Positions 3,507-64,000 of a stretch of DNA of 64,000 bases are shown piece by piece. The first letter of the stretch is position 1; each line of letters opens with the position of its first letter. Position numbers and translations under genes: made by a program. This DNA comes from Planctomycetota bacterium. GTDB lineage: Bacteria > Planctomycetota > UBA1135 > GCA-002686595. The notes beneath the pieces were generated by a model that was not told where the DNA came from, searched no databases, and saw nothing but the letters and a program-made list of their open reading frames with translations. Location of the stretch: positions 62,001-126,000 of the forward strand of contig JAKVCD010000041.1 in NCBI GenBank assembly GCA_022446815.1, written 5' to 3'.

Positions 3507-5099
3507 ATGAGGCCGATCCAAAGAACCAAACCTCTGAGGGCCCTCTGGGCCTCCCTAGCTATCACCTCCGTCGCCGCCGTGGGGGCGGCGCAGCACGTGG
3601 TAGACCCCTTCGAGCCGGGCTTGCGCTGGAGTCGGCAGAGCGCAGCAGACACCCCTTGGATCCCTGGGAGGGTGCTCTTCACGGATGGAGATCAGCTCGC
3701 TTGGGCCTCCTCTGGCCCCCTGGGAGCGTGCATAGAGGCATACTCTGCCTGGGGGACAGGGCAGCAAGAGGTGCTCTCTAGGAGCGAGGAGCAGAGCGCG
3801 GGCGCTCGGGTCTGGGATCTGGCGGGCAGCCCGGGATCTGACGCGCTCTTCGCTGTCATCCACGCCCCCGCCCTGCTGGGAGGGGAGGTGCGGCTCGTCC
3901 GCTATCCGGCGCCTAGCGCTCAGGGCGCGAGCGCCTCGCAGCCGCTCTGGAGCGTCCCCTCGCCTGCGATCGAGACCGGCTCGGCGCGGGTCGCTTGTGA
4001 CTCCTTAGGGGACCGGGTCTGCTTCGCGAGCTGGGACGCTCAGCAGAAGCGGACCTACGTGCGGTGGCACCGCGCTTCGGACGGCGGGATCGTCGGCGCG
4101 ACAGAGGTCGTCGCGGCTGACCTCGACCTCCTCATCATGAGCGCTGACGGGGGCTTCACCCTCGCTACCGCAGGGGAACGAGTCTGGGTCTGGGATTCGA
4201 GCAGTGCGCTCATTCACTACGAGGTGACTGGCGCAGAGGTGCGCATCGCCGACTTCGACGCTGACGGGGCTCATCTCCTCCTAGGGCACGGCTCACGAGC
4301 CCGCCTCCTCACACGGACGACAGGGGGCTTCCTTGAGCTGGCGCGCGTCGATGGCGCGAGTACGGAGCTCGCCGCCTGTGGTGCGCTCAGTGAGAGCGGC
4401 GGAGGCTGGGCTGTCGCTTGGTGTGATGACTCTCTGAGTACGGCCCGCTTCAGCCTCTATGAGGGCTTGAGCGACGTCCTCCTGAGCGAGCACCAGCAGA
4501 GCGGAGCAGCGGGCAGGAGGCAGAACATCCCACAGGCTGTGAGTATCACTCCCGGCGGAGAACGCGCGGCCTTCGCGACCTGGGGTGACGGAGAGCAGGA
4601 AGAGCTCCTCCTCTTGGACACTGCTGGGTTCGTCTGGGCTGTAGATCTTCCTGGCAGCGCGACAGACGTAGCCCTCGATCGCTCCGGCCGTCGCTTGCTT
4701 GTCTCTCACAAGGACGCGCACGCCAATGAGGCTAGCGCGGGAGGTGCTGTGCGCCTCTTCGATACGGGAGAGGGGGACCTCGCGCTCATCGCAGCGCCGC
4801 GGCCTGGCGGCGCCCTCTCGGTGGAGTGTGAGGCGGCTGGGGCTAGCGTCGCCTTCTTCCTCTTTGGTGAACCCGTTGAGACAGCAGTAGACCTGCCGTT
4901 CGTATACGGTGAGCTCTGGGTCTCCTTGCACTCACGACTGCTCGTGCGGGCGAGGCGCCCCGGGCGTGATGGCCACGCGCGCTGTGAGCTCAACTTGCCA
5001 GAGAGCGCTGCAGGCCTCGAGCTCGCGGTGCAGGCTGTGATGCGGCGTGAGGGCGCGCTGGAGGCGAGCGCAGACCACCTCATCGTGCGTCCTCGCTGA
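3507..5099 (+). CDS. Exported beta-propeller-like protein of unknown function
   Basis: 530 residues. The N-terminus (MRPIQRTKPLRALWASLAIT followed by SVAAVGAAQ) is a good signal peptide with likely cleavage after an AxA site near residue 28, so the protein is exported. The mature part is a run of short beta-type repeats rich in VRWH, VWVWDSS, LLLGHGSRARLLTR and AFATWGDGEQEELLLLD segments, resembling WD40/YVTN-type blades, with no catalytic motif that I recognise. The ATG at 3507 has an AGGAG box about 18 nt upstream, longer than usual. It stands alone on the plus strand, divergent from the glycine-cleavage operon. Function not recognised; propeller fold is an inference from repeat texture. 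Confidence 0.7.
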   Translation: MRPIQRTKPLRALWASLAITSVAAVGAAQHVVDPFEPGLRWSRQSAADTPWIPGRVLFTDGDQLAWASSGPLGACIEAYSAWGTGQQEVLSRSEEQSAGARVWDLAGSPGSDALFAVIHAPALLGGEVRLVRYPAPSAQGASASQPLWSVPSPAIETGSARVACDSLGDRVCFASWDAQQKRTYVRWHRASDGGIVGATEVVAADLDLLIMSADGGFTLATAGERVWVWDSSSALIHYEVTGAEVRIADFDADGAHLLLGHGSRARLLTRTTGGFLELARVDGASTELAACGALSESGGGWAVAWCDDSLSTARFSLYEGLSDVLLSEHQQSGAAGRRQNIPQAVSITPGGERAAFATWGDGEQEELLLLDTAGFVWAVDLPGSATDVALDRSGRRLLVSHKDAHANEASAGGAVRLFDTGEGDLALIAAPRPGGALSVECEAAGASVAFFLFGEPVETAVDLPFVYGELWVSLHSRLLVRARRPGRDGHARCELNLPESAAGLELAVQAVMRREGALEASADHLIVRPR

Positions 5100-5377
5100 T
5101 CTCGGAGCGCCTTATGTATGTGGCGCGATCAACCGCGCCGATTCGGCTGTAAGTAATTGCCCTCTAATCGCTTAAGGGCGTTTACGCCCGAGTGTGGGCG
5201 TGGCTACGGGGTCCCCTCAGGAGAAAAGTCTCCCTCTCTCTAAAGAGCGACTTCCTAAGGGGACGAAGTTTGACCTCAGGTGGAGTCCCCAATCCACCTG
5301 AACCAAGGCTCTCCCTCCCCGACCGTCACTTGGCGCCGGGGGAATACCCAAACCCAAGCCATCAGGCTCCCAAAGCA

Positions 5378-8300
5378 ATGCACACATTCACCGCGATCTC
5401 TCGCGCCTTCGTCTTCGGGACGGCGCTCCTCTTTACAGCCTGCTCGAGCAGTGATGACTCGACAGGCGGCTCCCAGAGCTTTTTGACTTCAGCCACCCAA
5501 GATCAGGGCATCGACCCTAGCGGTCGGACGACGGTCTTCAACTTCAACAAGGCCCCCAAGAACGCCACAGCAGGTGACTTCTTCGCGAGCTCTGGACAGA
5601 CCGCTCAGACGGTCAGCATCTCTGGCGATACCGCTGTGGTGACTTGGAGTGAGCGCGTCAGCCCCTCTCACGAGGTGCGCTTCTCAGGCGGATCTTCTGA
5701 GAACAGCTGGGTCAGCGTGACGACTAGCGACTCGAACGCGAGCTCATTCGCGATCACCTCCGCCTCTCAGGTCGGCCTCGGCGCTGACGAGGTCACCCTC
5801 TCCGTCACCGGCCCGTGGCTCATCGAGTCCGAGGTCGAGGACCCGACGAACTGGAACTACTCCGTCTCCGGCTACGCACAGGATCTCTCTGGCTCGACGT
5901 TCGCATACGACGCGGCCGCCTCGAACCTGACGATCACCTTTGGCAGCTCCGCGAGCCTCCACAGCGAGTTCACGCTGACGCCGGCAGGCATCCGCACGGT
6001 CGCGGATGTCGACGCCGTTTACGACGTCTTGAACGGAACGAGCGCAGGTGACTCCGTCGCGCCGACGCTGGTCTCTGTCGAGCAGAACCTTACCGAGAGC
6101 GAGTTCGGACAGGTCATCGACTTCACCTTCAGCGAGGAGATGCACCCCTTCTTCTCTACGCCCGGGATCTACTTCCAGGTCGACGGCAACATCGCGATGT
6201 CCGTCTCGCAGCCCTCTGGTGAGGTCTTGCGCGTCTCCTACTCCCAGCCTGTGATCCCTGGCTTCGACACCGTCGAGGTCTCCAGCAGCCTGATGGACTT
6301 GCGCGGCAACGCGCTCTCCAACTCCGGTAGCTTCGCAGTCACGCAGCCTGCGCCGATCGCCAACGCTTTCAGCAGCGAGAGCAAGGCCACGACGACGCAG
6401 AACGAAGGCGGTGACTTCATCGTGGTGTACACGGACCAAGCCTTCGATGAGTCCGCCGCGAACAACCCCACGGCTTGGACCTTCACCGTAGACGGCGCCC
6501 TCATCAACCTGGGCTCACAGAGCTTCTCCTATGACTTCAGCGAGCGCTGCTTCCGCGTCGACCTCGGCTTCGACATGGAGAACGGTACCGACTGGATGGT
6601 GACCGCTCTGGGCATCCTCGAGGTCGACGGCGAGACCTTCGCTGGCTCCTTCAGCGGGACGGTCTCCGGTGATGCTGAGACTCCCTATGTGATCGCCGCG
6701 GTCCAGAACCGCTCCTTCGACAGCGCTGGCGCGACCATCGATGTTCGCCTGAGCGAAGACTGCGACTCGACATCTGCTGAGGACGTGAGCAACTGGAGCT
6801 TCACCGGAGGCCCCGCTGTCACCAGCGCGACCTTCCTCGGCAACAACCGCGTCGTGCGCCTGGTCTGCGACGAGACTGTCCTCCCTGGCGAGCACAGCTT
6901 GACCTGTGTCGCCCTCACGGACTTCGCCGGCAACGTGATGAGCGTCGCCCAAAACGGTGTCGAGGTCGTCTCCACTGACTCGACCACTCCCGCCGTCTTG
7001 GCCTCCACGGCCAGCGCCTTTGAGGGTGCGGGCAACGACGAGATCTTCGTCGTCTTCAGCGAAGACATGTACGAGGCCGACTGTGAGGACGCCTCAAAGT
7101 GGACCTTCGAGTCACCGCAAGGTACCGCGCTCGATCTCTCTGGCGCGAGCTTCGAGTACAGCTCCACGCACCGCACCTGCACGGTCACCTTCGGGACCTC
7201 AACAGGCGTGAACTTGAAGCGTGGCGATGACTTCTCGATCTCCTTCGACGTGGTCCGTGACCTCGGTGGCAACGTCCTCAGCACTGCCCCTGCGACTGGC
7301 ACAATCTCCGCTGAGACGACGCAGCCTCGCGTGGTCGACTGCTGGCGCGACGCGATCGGCGACAATGTCATCGTTCGCTTCAGTGAGCCCTGCGACTGGA
7401 CTGAAGACATCTCTGGCGCCACCCGCTACGTCCTCCGTGACGGCGCAGGGATGGTCCTCTCAGAGAACCCTCTCTCGGCGACGTCTCTCGACGACGGCCT
7501 CGGCGTGCGCGTCCACTTCGGCGTCACGATCCAGCCTGACTACACCATGGACGTCTTCGGGATCACCGACCTCGCTGGCAACCACCTCTACCCTGATACG
7601 GGCCGCGGCCTCTCTGTCTCTGACAGTTCCATGCCCTCCTTTGCGGGTGGCACGACCGTCCTCGACGTGCAGAGCGGTGAGAACAACGACACCGTGATCT
7701 TGGAGTTCGACCGGAAGATGAGCCCCTGGGGCATCACCGACCACGAGAACTACACTATCTCTACGGGTGGGGAAGACTTCGATCTCAGCGCAGCGAGCTT
7801 TGGCTTCGACGGTGACCGCATGGTCTGGATCGACCTGGGCCGTGGTACGAGCGACAACCTGCAGGACGGGGCGAGCTACACCGTGACGGTGTCGGGCGTT
7901 CAGACCGCGCAGGGAGTCGAGCGTGGCTTCGCTGACAGCGACCTGGCTGTCGCCTCTGGCGACAACGCCTTCCCTACAGCCTTCGTCGGCGACGTCCGCC
8001 TAGACCCGCTCTACCAGAACTGCGTGCTGATCAGCTGCACCGAGGCCCTCGACGAGGCCCTCGCTTCGGACGCCACTCGCTACGCTCTCAACGGGAGCCC
8101 CGCGACAGCTGCAGAGCTGGTCAGCCCCCGCTGCTGCCGAGTGACCTTCTCGACTATTCCTGCAGAGCTCGACACGGTGAGCTTCACCCTGACCGACTTG
8201 GCTGGGAACGAGTCTGGCTCCATCAGCCGCGCTGTCTCCGCTGCGGACTTCACCGCGCCCCTCCTCGTCAACGTCGAGGGTACAGCGATCTCCGGCAACG

Positions 8301-59852: not shown

Positions 59853-61526
59853 ATGCCTGCGCTCAACGCCCTCTTCGCCGTGCTCCTCCTAGCGGCCCCC
59901 TCAACGGCCCAGCAAGACGAGGCCCCGGTCGCTCTGGACGCGGAGTATCAGCGCCTAGCGCTGCGTTATGCGAACGCCCTAGAGACTTGGTCGATCCTAG
60001 AGAAGCGCCAGCGGAAGCAGGGGGTGCCCAAAGCCCAACTCGCTGTGCCGCCGGGTTATGAGTATCAGCCGCTATTTGAGGACCTCGCTAAGCGAGGCAG
60101 CGCCTACGCCCGCCTCTGGATGGTTCAGAACCCTGGCTTCCACGGCGAGAGCCCTATTAAGCGACGCGCTGTTTTGCAGCGCTGGTACAAGGCACTCGTA
60201 GAGGAGAGCCCTGACTTCGAGCAGATGGGACACGTCATCGAGGAGCTCGGCAGCTCAAAACGGCGCCTCGGCGAAGAGTTCGTCTTGAGCACCCTAGCGA
60301 CCCTCTCTGAGCGCTCGACGAACCCCGAGTACATTGTTGGCGCGCTCTACCATCAAGGGTGGATACTCAGCGAAGGCATGGGGACCAAAGACCCCAAGCG
60401 CCGTGCGGAGGCGCTGGAGATCTTCTCGATCATCGTGGCCGGATACCCGACCTCTACCGAGGCGCAGCGGACGGCGGGGGTCCTCTATGCGGTCGAGAGC
60501 AAAGCCCTACGCCTCGCTCTCCACGAGTGGTGCGATGCTTGTCGCGCGGTGACTGCGCAGGGTGAGGGCCCTGAGAAGTGGCCCAAGAACCCTATGCACC
60601 AGACGCAGCCCAAGATGGCGAGCCTCGCTGCGGCAGGTAGCGGACAAGCGCAGCAGTGGGTCGCGCAGTTCTATCCAGCCTTCGACCAGCGAGATCGACG
60701 CGCGAGAGACCTCGGCACGCTCTGGCTAGGGCAAGAATTCTCGAAGCGTCGCTCTGCAGCAGAGTCCGATTGGATGGACCTGAAGTTCGACATCCTCGAC
60801 GTGGCCGCAGAGGTTGCTGCGGAGGCGGATTGGGCCTTCGGGCTCGTCAAGGGTCTCAACGAAGAGCTCCCCTTCTTCCTGCCGGAGCGCTACGCCCCGC
60901 TCCTACGAAAGCTGATAGATGCCACTCAGGAGACCCGCGTTCGCGAGCAGGCACAGGTCACGCTCGCGCGCTCACTCTCTAAGGGTGCCAGCGCTGCAGA
61001 GCTCGAGGAGGCGCTCGCGCTCTTCCGATCTCTTGAGGCAGAGGGGGAGATCGAGCGGATCCGCAAAGAGGCCGAGGAGCACCGCGAGGCCCTCGAGCGC
61101 GTCATGCCTGGCGCCTCTGTTCCAGCCCTCGTCGGAAAGGACGCAGAGGGCGTGAAGATCGACCTCGAGGCGTACGAGGGGAAGGTCTTGGTGCTTTGGT
61201 TCTGGTCCTTCAACCGCAAGGAGGAGGGCCAACTCGACGCTGTGCGGGCGTTCATCAAGAGCATGGAAGGTGAAGACTTCGCCTTCTTAGGCGTGAACTG
61301 TGATCTCCGCAGCCCCGTAGCCTTTCGGCGACAGGCTGCGAAAGAGGGCGTGGGCTGGCGCAACGCGCTTCAGTATCGGCGGGCCGGTCACATGACCGAA
61401 ACCTTCGGAGTCCATCACTGGCCGACCGCCTTCGTGATCGATGACGCTGGCGTTATCCGAGGCCGCGGCATCGACCTGAAGTCCTGTGAGGCGCTCTCAC
61501 GAGAGCTCCTCGCAGCTCGCGACTAG
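59853..61526 (+). CDS. Exported TlpA-like redoxin-domain protein without CxxC
   Basis: 557 residues from ATG 59853 with a signal peptide (NALFAVLLLAAPSTAQ); in-frame sequence upstream lies inside the mqnC antisense and is not coding. Residues about 25-420 are helical repeat-like sequence of unknown family. Residues about 420-557 are a TlpA/AhpC-type redoxin domain: VPALVGKDAEGVKIDLEAYEGKVLVLWFW, then SFNRKE where WCxxC would be, and HHWPTAFVIDDAGVIRGRG. Both active-site cysteines are missing, so it is not a classic thiol oxidoreductase. The N-terminal segment is similar to the one in the gene at 63193, so these are paralogs flanking glyS. Confidence 0.8.
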   Translation: MPALNALFAVLLLAAPSTAQQDEAPVALDAEYQRLALRYANALETWSILEKRQRKQGVPKAQLAVPPGYEYQPLFEDLAKRGSAYARLWMVQNPGFHGESPIKRRAVLQRWYKALVEESPDFEQMGHVIEELGSSKRRLGEEFVLSTLATLSERSTNPEYIVGALYHQGWILSEGMGTKDPKRRAEALEIFSIIVAGYPTSTEAQRTAGVLYAVESKALRLALHEWCDACRAVTAQGEGPEKWPKNPMHQTQPKMASLAAAGSGQAQQWVAQFYPAFDQRDRRARDLGTLWLGQEFSKRRSAAESDWMDLKFDILDVAAEVAAEADWAFGLVKGLNEELPFFLPERYAPLLRKLIDATQETRVREQAQVTLARSLSKGASAAELEEALALFRSLEAEGEIERIRKEAEEHREALERVMPGASVPALVGKDAEGVKIDLEAYEGKVLVLWFWSFNRKEEGQLDAVRAFIKSMEGEDFAFLGVNCDLRSPVAFRRQAAKEGVGWRNALQYRRAGHMTETFGVHHWPTAFVIDDAGVIRGRGIDLKSCEALSRELLAARD

Positions 61527-63072: not shown

Positions 63073-63192
63073 GCTGCGAGCGTCCCCCGCAGGGTCAACT
63101 AGGGGAGTTTTCTGACAACACGCCGCGGGCCCCCGCGTAGTGTGAGAGACTGAGCGTCCCCTGACTGGGGCACCGAATCACTTGGAGATCTC

Positions 63193-64000
63193 ATGCTATT
63201 GACCATCGCTCTGACCTTCATCTCGCCTGCTCCGATCGCGCTCGATGACGAGCCGCCGAGGTGGGAGCGCCTCATGCAGGAGTCTGACTATGAGGCCCTC
63301 GTCGACGTCTACGAGGACGCCTACACCGCCTGGCGAAAGGAGCTCAAGGAGGCTGACGGTCTCAAAGAGCGTCGTGTTGTGCGTGAGCGCGAACCGGCCA
63401 AGCTGTTCAGGCCGCGCTTCGAAGAGCTCGCGGACGCCGGCAGCGGCCGGGCACTCGTGTGGCTGATCGAGAACGCACGCAAGATCGAGGAGCGGAAGCA
63501 GATCCCGGCCTTCAAGGAGGAGCTCTACGGCCGCCTCTTCAAGGCCTATCTCGACGCCGAGTGGTTCGATGAGGTCATCGCCATGTACACGAGGGAGCGC
63601 CGCGACGTGAGCCCTGAGGCTATCGAAGCCACGATGGCCTCGGCCCTCGAGCGCTCCGAAGGCTACGCGCGCGCGCAGCTCCTCCTCGGCCTCGCGCGCT
63701 ACCGACTCGCTGGGAATCGCGACTCTGGCCTCGAGCTATACGAGCAGCTCATCAAGGAGCACCCTGACTCAGAGGCCGCCAAGGTGGCGCAGGTCGAGTA
63801 CGACCGCCTGACTAAGTTTGGCGTCGGCGCGACGCCTCCGGACTTCAATGGGCAGACGATCGATGGGGCAGAGCTCTCGCTCTACGCCAACCGCGGCAAG
63901 ATCACGGTCATCGACTTCTGGGGCTACTGGTGAGGTCCCTGCCGAGGTGAGATCCCTCACCTCAACGCGCTCGTGAAGCGCCACAAGGACGACCCCTTTG
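63193..64000 (+). CDS. TlpA-like redoxin with in-frame TGA at the CxxC position (probable selenoprotein; 3' end outside window)
   Basis: The conventional frame ends at TGA 63931-63933 after 246 codons, but reading on gives GPCRGEIPHLNALVKRHKDD in the same frame to the window edge. The residues before are VIDFWGYW, so the TGA occupies the first cysteine of the TlpA WCGPC motif, i.e. W-U-G-P-C. A 20-nt perfect hairpin starts 10 nt later. The N-terminal part (signal peptide-like start MLLTIALTFISPAPI, then about 195 residues of helical repeats) is similar to the paralog at 59853. A GGAG box 6 nt before ATG 63193 supports the start. Alternatives: a nonsense mutation or a sequencing error (TGC/TGT to TGA). 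The expected product is an exported thiol/selenol oxidoreductase. Confidence 0.75.
63931..63963 (+). promoter_or_regulatory. Candidate SECIS-like element: TGA followed by hairpin
   Basis: TGA at 63931-63933 is followed after 10 nt by GAGGTGAG (63944-63951) and CTCACCTC (63956-63963), a perfect 8-bp stem with loop ATCC. Opening the top G-C pair gives loop GATCCC, with a G at its start, about 17 nt after the TGA. This fits my recollection of bacterial SECIS spacing. It lies inside the downstream coding sequence, as bacterial SECIS elements do. Confidence 0.6.

Follow-up and report, generated by a model that had tools for sequence, protein, structure and literature searches.

A very probable selenocysteine-containing TlpA/ResA-like redoxin with a helical N-terminal domain in a Planctomycetota bacterium

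We describe a gene at the end of a 64,000-nucleotide stretch of planctomycete DNA (the window; G000:C36:62001-126000, from a draft genome of 3.25 Mb in 44 contigs) that very probably encodes a selenoprotein of 351 residues. The UGA at 63931-63933 would be decoded as selenocysteine (Sec) within the UGPC active site of a redoxin that is probably exported. A sequence-only reading of this DNA had proposed a TlpA-type redoxin with Sec in a UxxC site, a proposal now supported by the domain assignment, dN/dS ratios, the TGA or Cys codons of homologues, RNA hairpins after the UGA, and the presence of selA and selB.

The gene starts on the forward strand with an ATG at 63193, and reading of the sequence places a Shine-Dalgarno-like GGAG (63184-63187, forward strand) 5 nt upstream of it. 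Residues 1-269 of the 351 lie in the window (63193-64000, forward strand), and the gene ends beyond it, at window-equivalent position 64248 (G000:C36:126248). Under translation table 11 the open reading frame ends at 63933 after 246 amino acids, so that standard annotation truncates the protein before its active site, as the sequence-only reading had anticipated. When the TGA (63931-63933, forward strand) is translated as Sec, the protein reads VIDFWGYW, then U247 of a WUGPC motif in place of the first Cys of WCGPC, then GPCRGEIPHLNALVKRHKDDPF, with the frame open up to base 64000. The assignment draws on the sequence, the aligned sites of homologues and dN/dS. Extending the sequence to the right, which that reading had also proposed, recovered a full redoxin domain downstream of the TGA: on the contig beyond the window the frame stays intact to residue 351 and closes with a terminal TGA at window-equivalent positions 64246-64248. 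A relative from the same genus (G001) carries TGA at the identical codon, and dN/dS against this relative is 0.181 for the 246 codons upstream of the TGA and 0.178 for the 104 codons downstream. The two other downstream frames give dN/dS values of 1.5 and 3.5 and contain three stops each in our sequence. The same TGA in the relative, together with matching dN/dS on either side of it, argues that the codon is not there by chance, and the substitution pattern indicates a downstream frame that is translated and under purifying selection.

The 351-residue product combines a helical N-terminal domain with a thioredoxin fold of the TlpA/ResA type, as seen in Pfam matches, an AlphaFold2 model and PDB matches. 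Approximately the first 20 residues (63193-63252, forward strand) form a probable signal peptide or unstructured N-terminus, hydrophobic by eye and with low pLDDT, which extends over the first three 10-residue blocks of the model. Many homologues also have starts that look signal-like by eye, and these sequence features suggest that the selenoprotein is probably exported. The helical domain covers residues 23-207 (63259-63813, forward strand; Pfam and model) and includes one TPR_6 match at residues 161-193. The redoxin domain follows at residues 211-351, its 5' part at 63823-64000 (forward strand), and is matched by Pfam AhpC-TSA (60.3 bits, cut-off 26, E 2.2e-16) and by sequences and folds in the PDB. 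Pfam Redoxin (PF08534) reaches 45.3 bits against a cut-off of 26.6, with UGPC as the UxxC active-site motif, and the AhpC-TSA, Thioredoxin_8, Redoxin and Thioredoxin matches all fall within residues 211-328. In the model (mean pLDDT 92.9), the helices of residues 23-207 are followed by the thioredoxin fold, and residue 247 immediately precedes a helix at 248-263. The first 34 PDB matches found with Foldseek are all chains of thiol-disulfide oxidoreductases or of thioredoxin-family proteins, with alignments of 131-147 columns and a TM-score on the target of 0.75-0.87 (0.81-0.87 for the ResA chains among them). PDB sequence matches span approximately residues 178-348, the best being thiol-disulfide oxidoreductases that include ResA. 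Three positions are invariant in 32 aligned sequences, namely 247 (Sec and Cys both counted as C), C250 and P313, the last presumably the cis-Pro. The UxxC that opens the active-site helix, together with the conserved Pro, places the protein with the TlpA/ResA-like oxidoreductases of thioredoxin fold. At the level of named NCBIfam subfamilies, scores stay below the cut-offs for ResA (65 of 170 bits), TlpA (49.8 of 230) and DsbE (45.6 of 123.15), and none of the NCBIfam models listed for the selenoprotein, selenoprotein models included, reaches its cut-off.

Homologues are common, and most carry the same interruption. A match was found in 95 of the 101 genomes searched, our own included, and 143 of the 150 matches listed have an in-frame TGA (two of them from our own genome), while six have no stop and one has a TAG only. 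These counts were made by hand on the matches listed, with weaker matches outside them, and the position of the TGA was verified in the loci that were fetched. Mapping by tblastn gave a site for 95 of 103 loci, corresponding to 92 distinct sites. At these, the aligned codon is TGA in 79, TGC in seven, TGT in five and AAC in one, so that the check proposed in the sequence-only reading, for Cys or TGA at this codon in homologues, found 79 TGA and 12 Cys sites, the single Asn belonging to a degenerate paralogue upstream in the window. The residue at +3 is Cys in 91 of the 92 sites. The fetched loci were mostly top matches, so that 79 of 92 should not be taken as an unbiased frequency, and the sequences are related, so that counts of sites and hairpins are not independent. 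The in-frame TGA aligns with a catalytic Cys of homologues, as expected of a bacterial selenoprotein. The 101 genomes account for seven of the 12 Cys sites; the other five stem from a scan of a contig database, in which all five relatives found have Cys at the matched site; in the genomes of these five relatives, TGA occurs in four of 28 matches. The match with a TAG only (G007:C4:1222-2250) was considered as a recoded Sec gene and rejected, the codon at its site being TGT.

Some members of the family stand in arrays of two or three neighbouring paralogues (L023/L119 in G007:C4, L122 in G005:C18 and L050 in G028:C22), and in the G007 array Sec and Cys versions are adjacent. The window itself also contains, immediately before glyS, a 548-aa gene (59880-61526, forward strand) whose C-terminal part matches AhpC-TSA at 35.6 bits (cut-off 26). 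Its active site reads FWSFNRKEEG, in which both catalytic Cys positions are lost (to Asn and Glu), and it is a degenerate paralogue that perhaps acts as a non-catalytic binding protein.

The sequence-only reading had pointed to selA, selB, selD and a tRNA-Sec as the genes to look for in this genome. The first two are present: SelB is intact (353.4 bits, cut-off 242.25), and SelA runs off the end of contig C14 and is truncated. The other two are not over their cut-offs in the draft, but both occur in G001. The best SelD match in our draft scores 48.4 bits against a cut-off of 125, and the best tRNA-Sec match, at 41.8 bits against 47, is an ordinary tRNA; eight of the 21 sub-cut-off tRNA-Sec matches were scanned and proved to be ordinary tRNAs (four Ser, two Gly, one Leu and one Tyr). 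SelA and SelB were searched for in our own genome, SelD and tRNA-Sec in all 101, where tRNA-Sec is over its cut-off in 95 and SelD in 94, our own genome missing both. In G001, tRNA-SeC shares one contig with SelD, which has a CAGU motif, and G001 and G002, the two relatives of the same genus that were searched, each have a tRNA-SeC with anticodon TCA. Used as a query against our genome, the G001 contig gives one match, G000:C21:1-915, which corresponds to bases 4839-5753 of the G001 contig; the G001 tRNA-Sec lies at 3867-3960, upstream of the stretch that matches the start of C21. Since base 1 of C21 falls inside the stretch that follows the tRNA-Sec in G001, our contig starts just past the place of that gene, and an assembly gap at the contig end is the likely explanation for the missing selD and tRNA-Sec. 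As far as it was read, the G001 contig does not contain selA, and therefore C14 and C21 do not necessarily adjoin at these ends. One in-frame TGA is present in 92 of the 95 SelD matches listed (counted by hand), and from these sequences selenophosphate synthetase looks to be a selenoprotein itself in most genomes searched.

Two candidate SECIS hairpins follow the UGA within the coding sequence. Hairpin 1 (63944-63963, forward strand) has an 8-bp stem, GAGGTGAG/CTCACCTC, which with its top pair open presents the loop GAUCCC at +17; hairpin 2 (63967-63981, forward strand) has a 5-bp stem and the loop CGUGA at +38. Structure was measured as z against redraws of synonymous codons. Across the 79 TGA genes, 30-nt windows at 0, +15 and +30 have mean z of -1.25, -1.05 and -1.05, compared with -0.28 to +0.55 in the remaining windows from -120 to +180. 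In the 12 Cys genes, the same three windows have mean z of -0.35, +0.03 and -0.17, and one structured window appears at +120 to +150 (mean z -1.03, n=12). A finer scan with 24-nt windows distinguishes two types. In type A (49 genes, the window's gene included), mean z is -2.40 at start +6 and -2.38 at start +27, whereas in type B (30 genes, in which HERSL follows the motif) the main peak starts at +18 to +24, with a mean of -2.94 at +18 and a weaker signal at 0 (z -1.61); the 12 Cys genes range from -0.54 to +0.15. Just downstream of the codon, RNA structure clearly exceeds synonymous controls in TGA genes and does not in Cys genes.

Counts of stems agree with this picture. Stems of at least 6 bp occur as hairpin 1 in 30 of 49 type A genes (control 10.0%), as hairpin 2 in 39 of 49 (control 13.5%) and as both in 24 of 49, and a hairpin of at least 6 bp is present in 30 of 30 type B genes (control 16.3%). 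In the same three windows, the Cys genes have 1, 0 and 1 of 12, under their controls, and two control windows further downstream showed no clear stem excess. At least one of the three windows, which together span +6 to +52, holds a stem of at least 6 bp in 75 of 79 TGA genes versus two of 12 Cys genes, with controls that apply per window and not to this union. In 27 of the 30 type B genes, the hairpin presents a GGUC loop at +31. GU occurs in 38 of 39 hairpin-2 loops, a regularity that follows in part from the Val codon at V261, which hardly varies. Within registers, both partners of several pairs are changed, and the register of hairpin 1 differs between genes. A SECIS rule given in the excerpted text of PMC13188914 asks for a loop of 3-9 nt, G in its first two positions, a spacing of 16-37 and an energy of at most -7.5. 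With constrained folding, this rule is passed by 28 of 30 type B genes, 17 of 49 type A genes and three of 12 Cys genes; the window's gene passes in this way and fails by plain minimum energy. Under plain minimum-energy folding of the first 42 sites, nine of 34 TGA genes pass (6.7 expected) and four of eight Cys genes (2.0 expected). With TGA genes barely above controls and Cys genes passing more often, the plain form of the rule does not separate the groups. An Rfam search gave three matches, far below gathering scores and none credible, and promoter and terminator scans found nothing.

Other accounts of the TGA can be weighed against this evidence. The source is a draft assembly of 44 contigs, and the codon could in principle reflect a mistake in sequencing or assembly, or a nonsense mutation of recent origin, in which case the gene would be a pseudogene or would truly read TGC or TGT. 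The same TGA in G001 and at 79 of the 92 aligned sites, with selection intact downstream, makes this extremely improbable. We give equally little credence to the idea that the TGA usually ends translation, with readthrough no more than occasional, and that the functional product is the helical protein of 246 residues. Table 11 does yield a 246-aa frame, and Sec insertion is in competition with termination, but the 104 downstream codons are constrained as strongly as the 246 upstream, and the aligned relatives show conservation of the domain that surrounds the site.

It is also very unlikely that a suppressor or reassigned tRNA reads the UGA as Cys or Trp. Cys-inserting UGA tRNAs occur naturally, and tRNA-Sec is not over its cut-off in the draft assembly; against this stand selA and selB in the genome, tRNA-SeC with anticodon TCA in G001 and G002, and hairpins near the UGA in TGA genes but not in Cys genes. 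A genome-wide reassignment of TGA was rejected, since the selenoprotein gene and glyS both end in TGA and UGA is thus still a stop. Decoding as Sec is the reading that we retain.

The mechanism we propose is that the UGA would be read by the SelA/SelB/SelD/tRNA-Sec system, guided by the RNA hairpins immediately downstream within the coding sequence. Sec247 may then attack a substrate disulfide or, alternatively, become oxidised and be resolved by Cys250. The product would most likely be a fast thiol-disulfide reductase or a peroxide-linked redoxin outside the cytoplasm. The decoding as Sec, the export, the direction of the redox reaction and the substrate are all what we infer.

Sec candidates extend beyond this gene. 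Half of the AhpC-TSA matches in our own genome (five of 10) contain TGA: the window's gene, a second helical-domain/TlpA gene (FWGDWUGPC), a TlpA-like gene with FWATWUGPC, and two peroxiredoxins with TFVU and DTPGU, in which the U presumably occupies the peroxidatic position. The four further genes lie at G000:C24:24028-24420, C10:90093-90461, C3:34829-35179 and C9:17617-17976 (L165, L166, L168 and L170). Within the window, other Sec motifs matched by a crude scan were judged by eye to be chance. Across 294 genomes of the phylum, the redoxin domain is matched in 204 and tRNA-Sec in 185. Outside the order, 46 genomes have a listed TGA match and tRNA-Sec was found in 40 of them, versus 11 of the 23 whose listed matches lack TGA (one-sided Fisher p 8e-4, a hand tally of the matches listed), which indicates a family that is mixed, Sec and non-Sec, beyond the order.

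The protein shares its thioredoxin fold and WCxxC-type active site with TlpA/ResA/CcmG-type oxidoreductases (PF00578, PF08534), from which it differs by having Sec for the first active-site Cys and an extra helical N-terminal domain of approximately 185 residues. UxxC selenoproteins of related kinds are on record in the excerpted text of several sources: a "Redoxin family protein" (PF08534) in PMC13188914, a 2026 review, and PMC9312934; Prx-like 1 and Prx-like 3 in PMC2398784, which also mentions fused domains, including a Prx-like 3 fusion; and selenoproteins of Prx-like thiol:disulfide oxidoreductase and thiol:disulfide interchange types in PMC1794560. The window's protein matches the published "Redoxin family" (PF08534) in both domain and UxxC motif. 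Compared by description and not by sequence, the published redoxins belong to the same superfamily and have Sec in UxxC where the motif is given, and the excerpted descriptions name neither a distribution in Planctomycetota nor the helical fusion. The family WAxxUGC_long (NCBIfam NF041054) is likewise a ResA-like selenoprotein family, with the motif UGC versus UGPC here; membership was rejected at 20.7 bits against a cut-off of 300. Selenoproteins have been reported in two planctomycetes (PMC4807772, in excerpt), and these may overlap with the present family. In the excerpted open-licence PMC literature, we found no description of widespread Sec use by the helical-domain/TlpA family in one Planctomycetota order; the excerpts of PMC5029168 and PMC8938466 held nothing further on the family, and a term search of the PMC12013277 text available gave no matches. 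UxxC selenoproteins of thioredoxin-like fold are already published, and so the kind is known: the sequence-only description of a new selenoprotein holds for the gene and probably for the family, but not for the kind.

For one Planctomycetota order, we put forward, with confidence evenly balanced, that Sec has become the rule among the exported redoxins of the helical-domain/TlpA family, that this family has expanded, many genomes having several Sec paralogues, and that it uses two distinct RNA signals. Type B would use the GGUC loop at +31, and type A two adjoining hairpins, of which the second places a GU-containing loop at +38/+39, slightly beyond the spacing published for SECIS elements. 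Because the standard code truncates this protein and no listed NCBIfam model reaches its cut-off, many planctomycete genomes are likely to carry wrong annotations for this redox family, which is matched in 95 of 101 genomes. Its numerous natural homologues with Sec or Cys, sometimes adjacent in one array, would be useful for learning under which circumstances Sec is retained and what a hairpin requires to be read by SelB. The widespread use of Sec in the helical-domain/TlpA family, together with its two-hairpin signal, emerges as the point most worth following.
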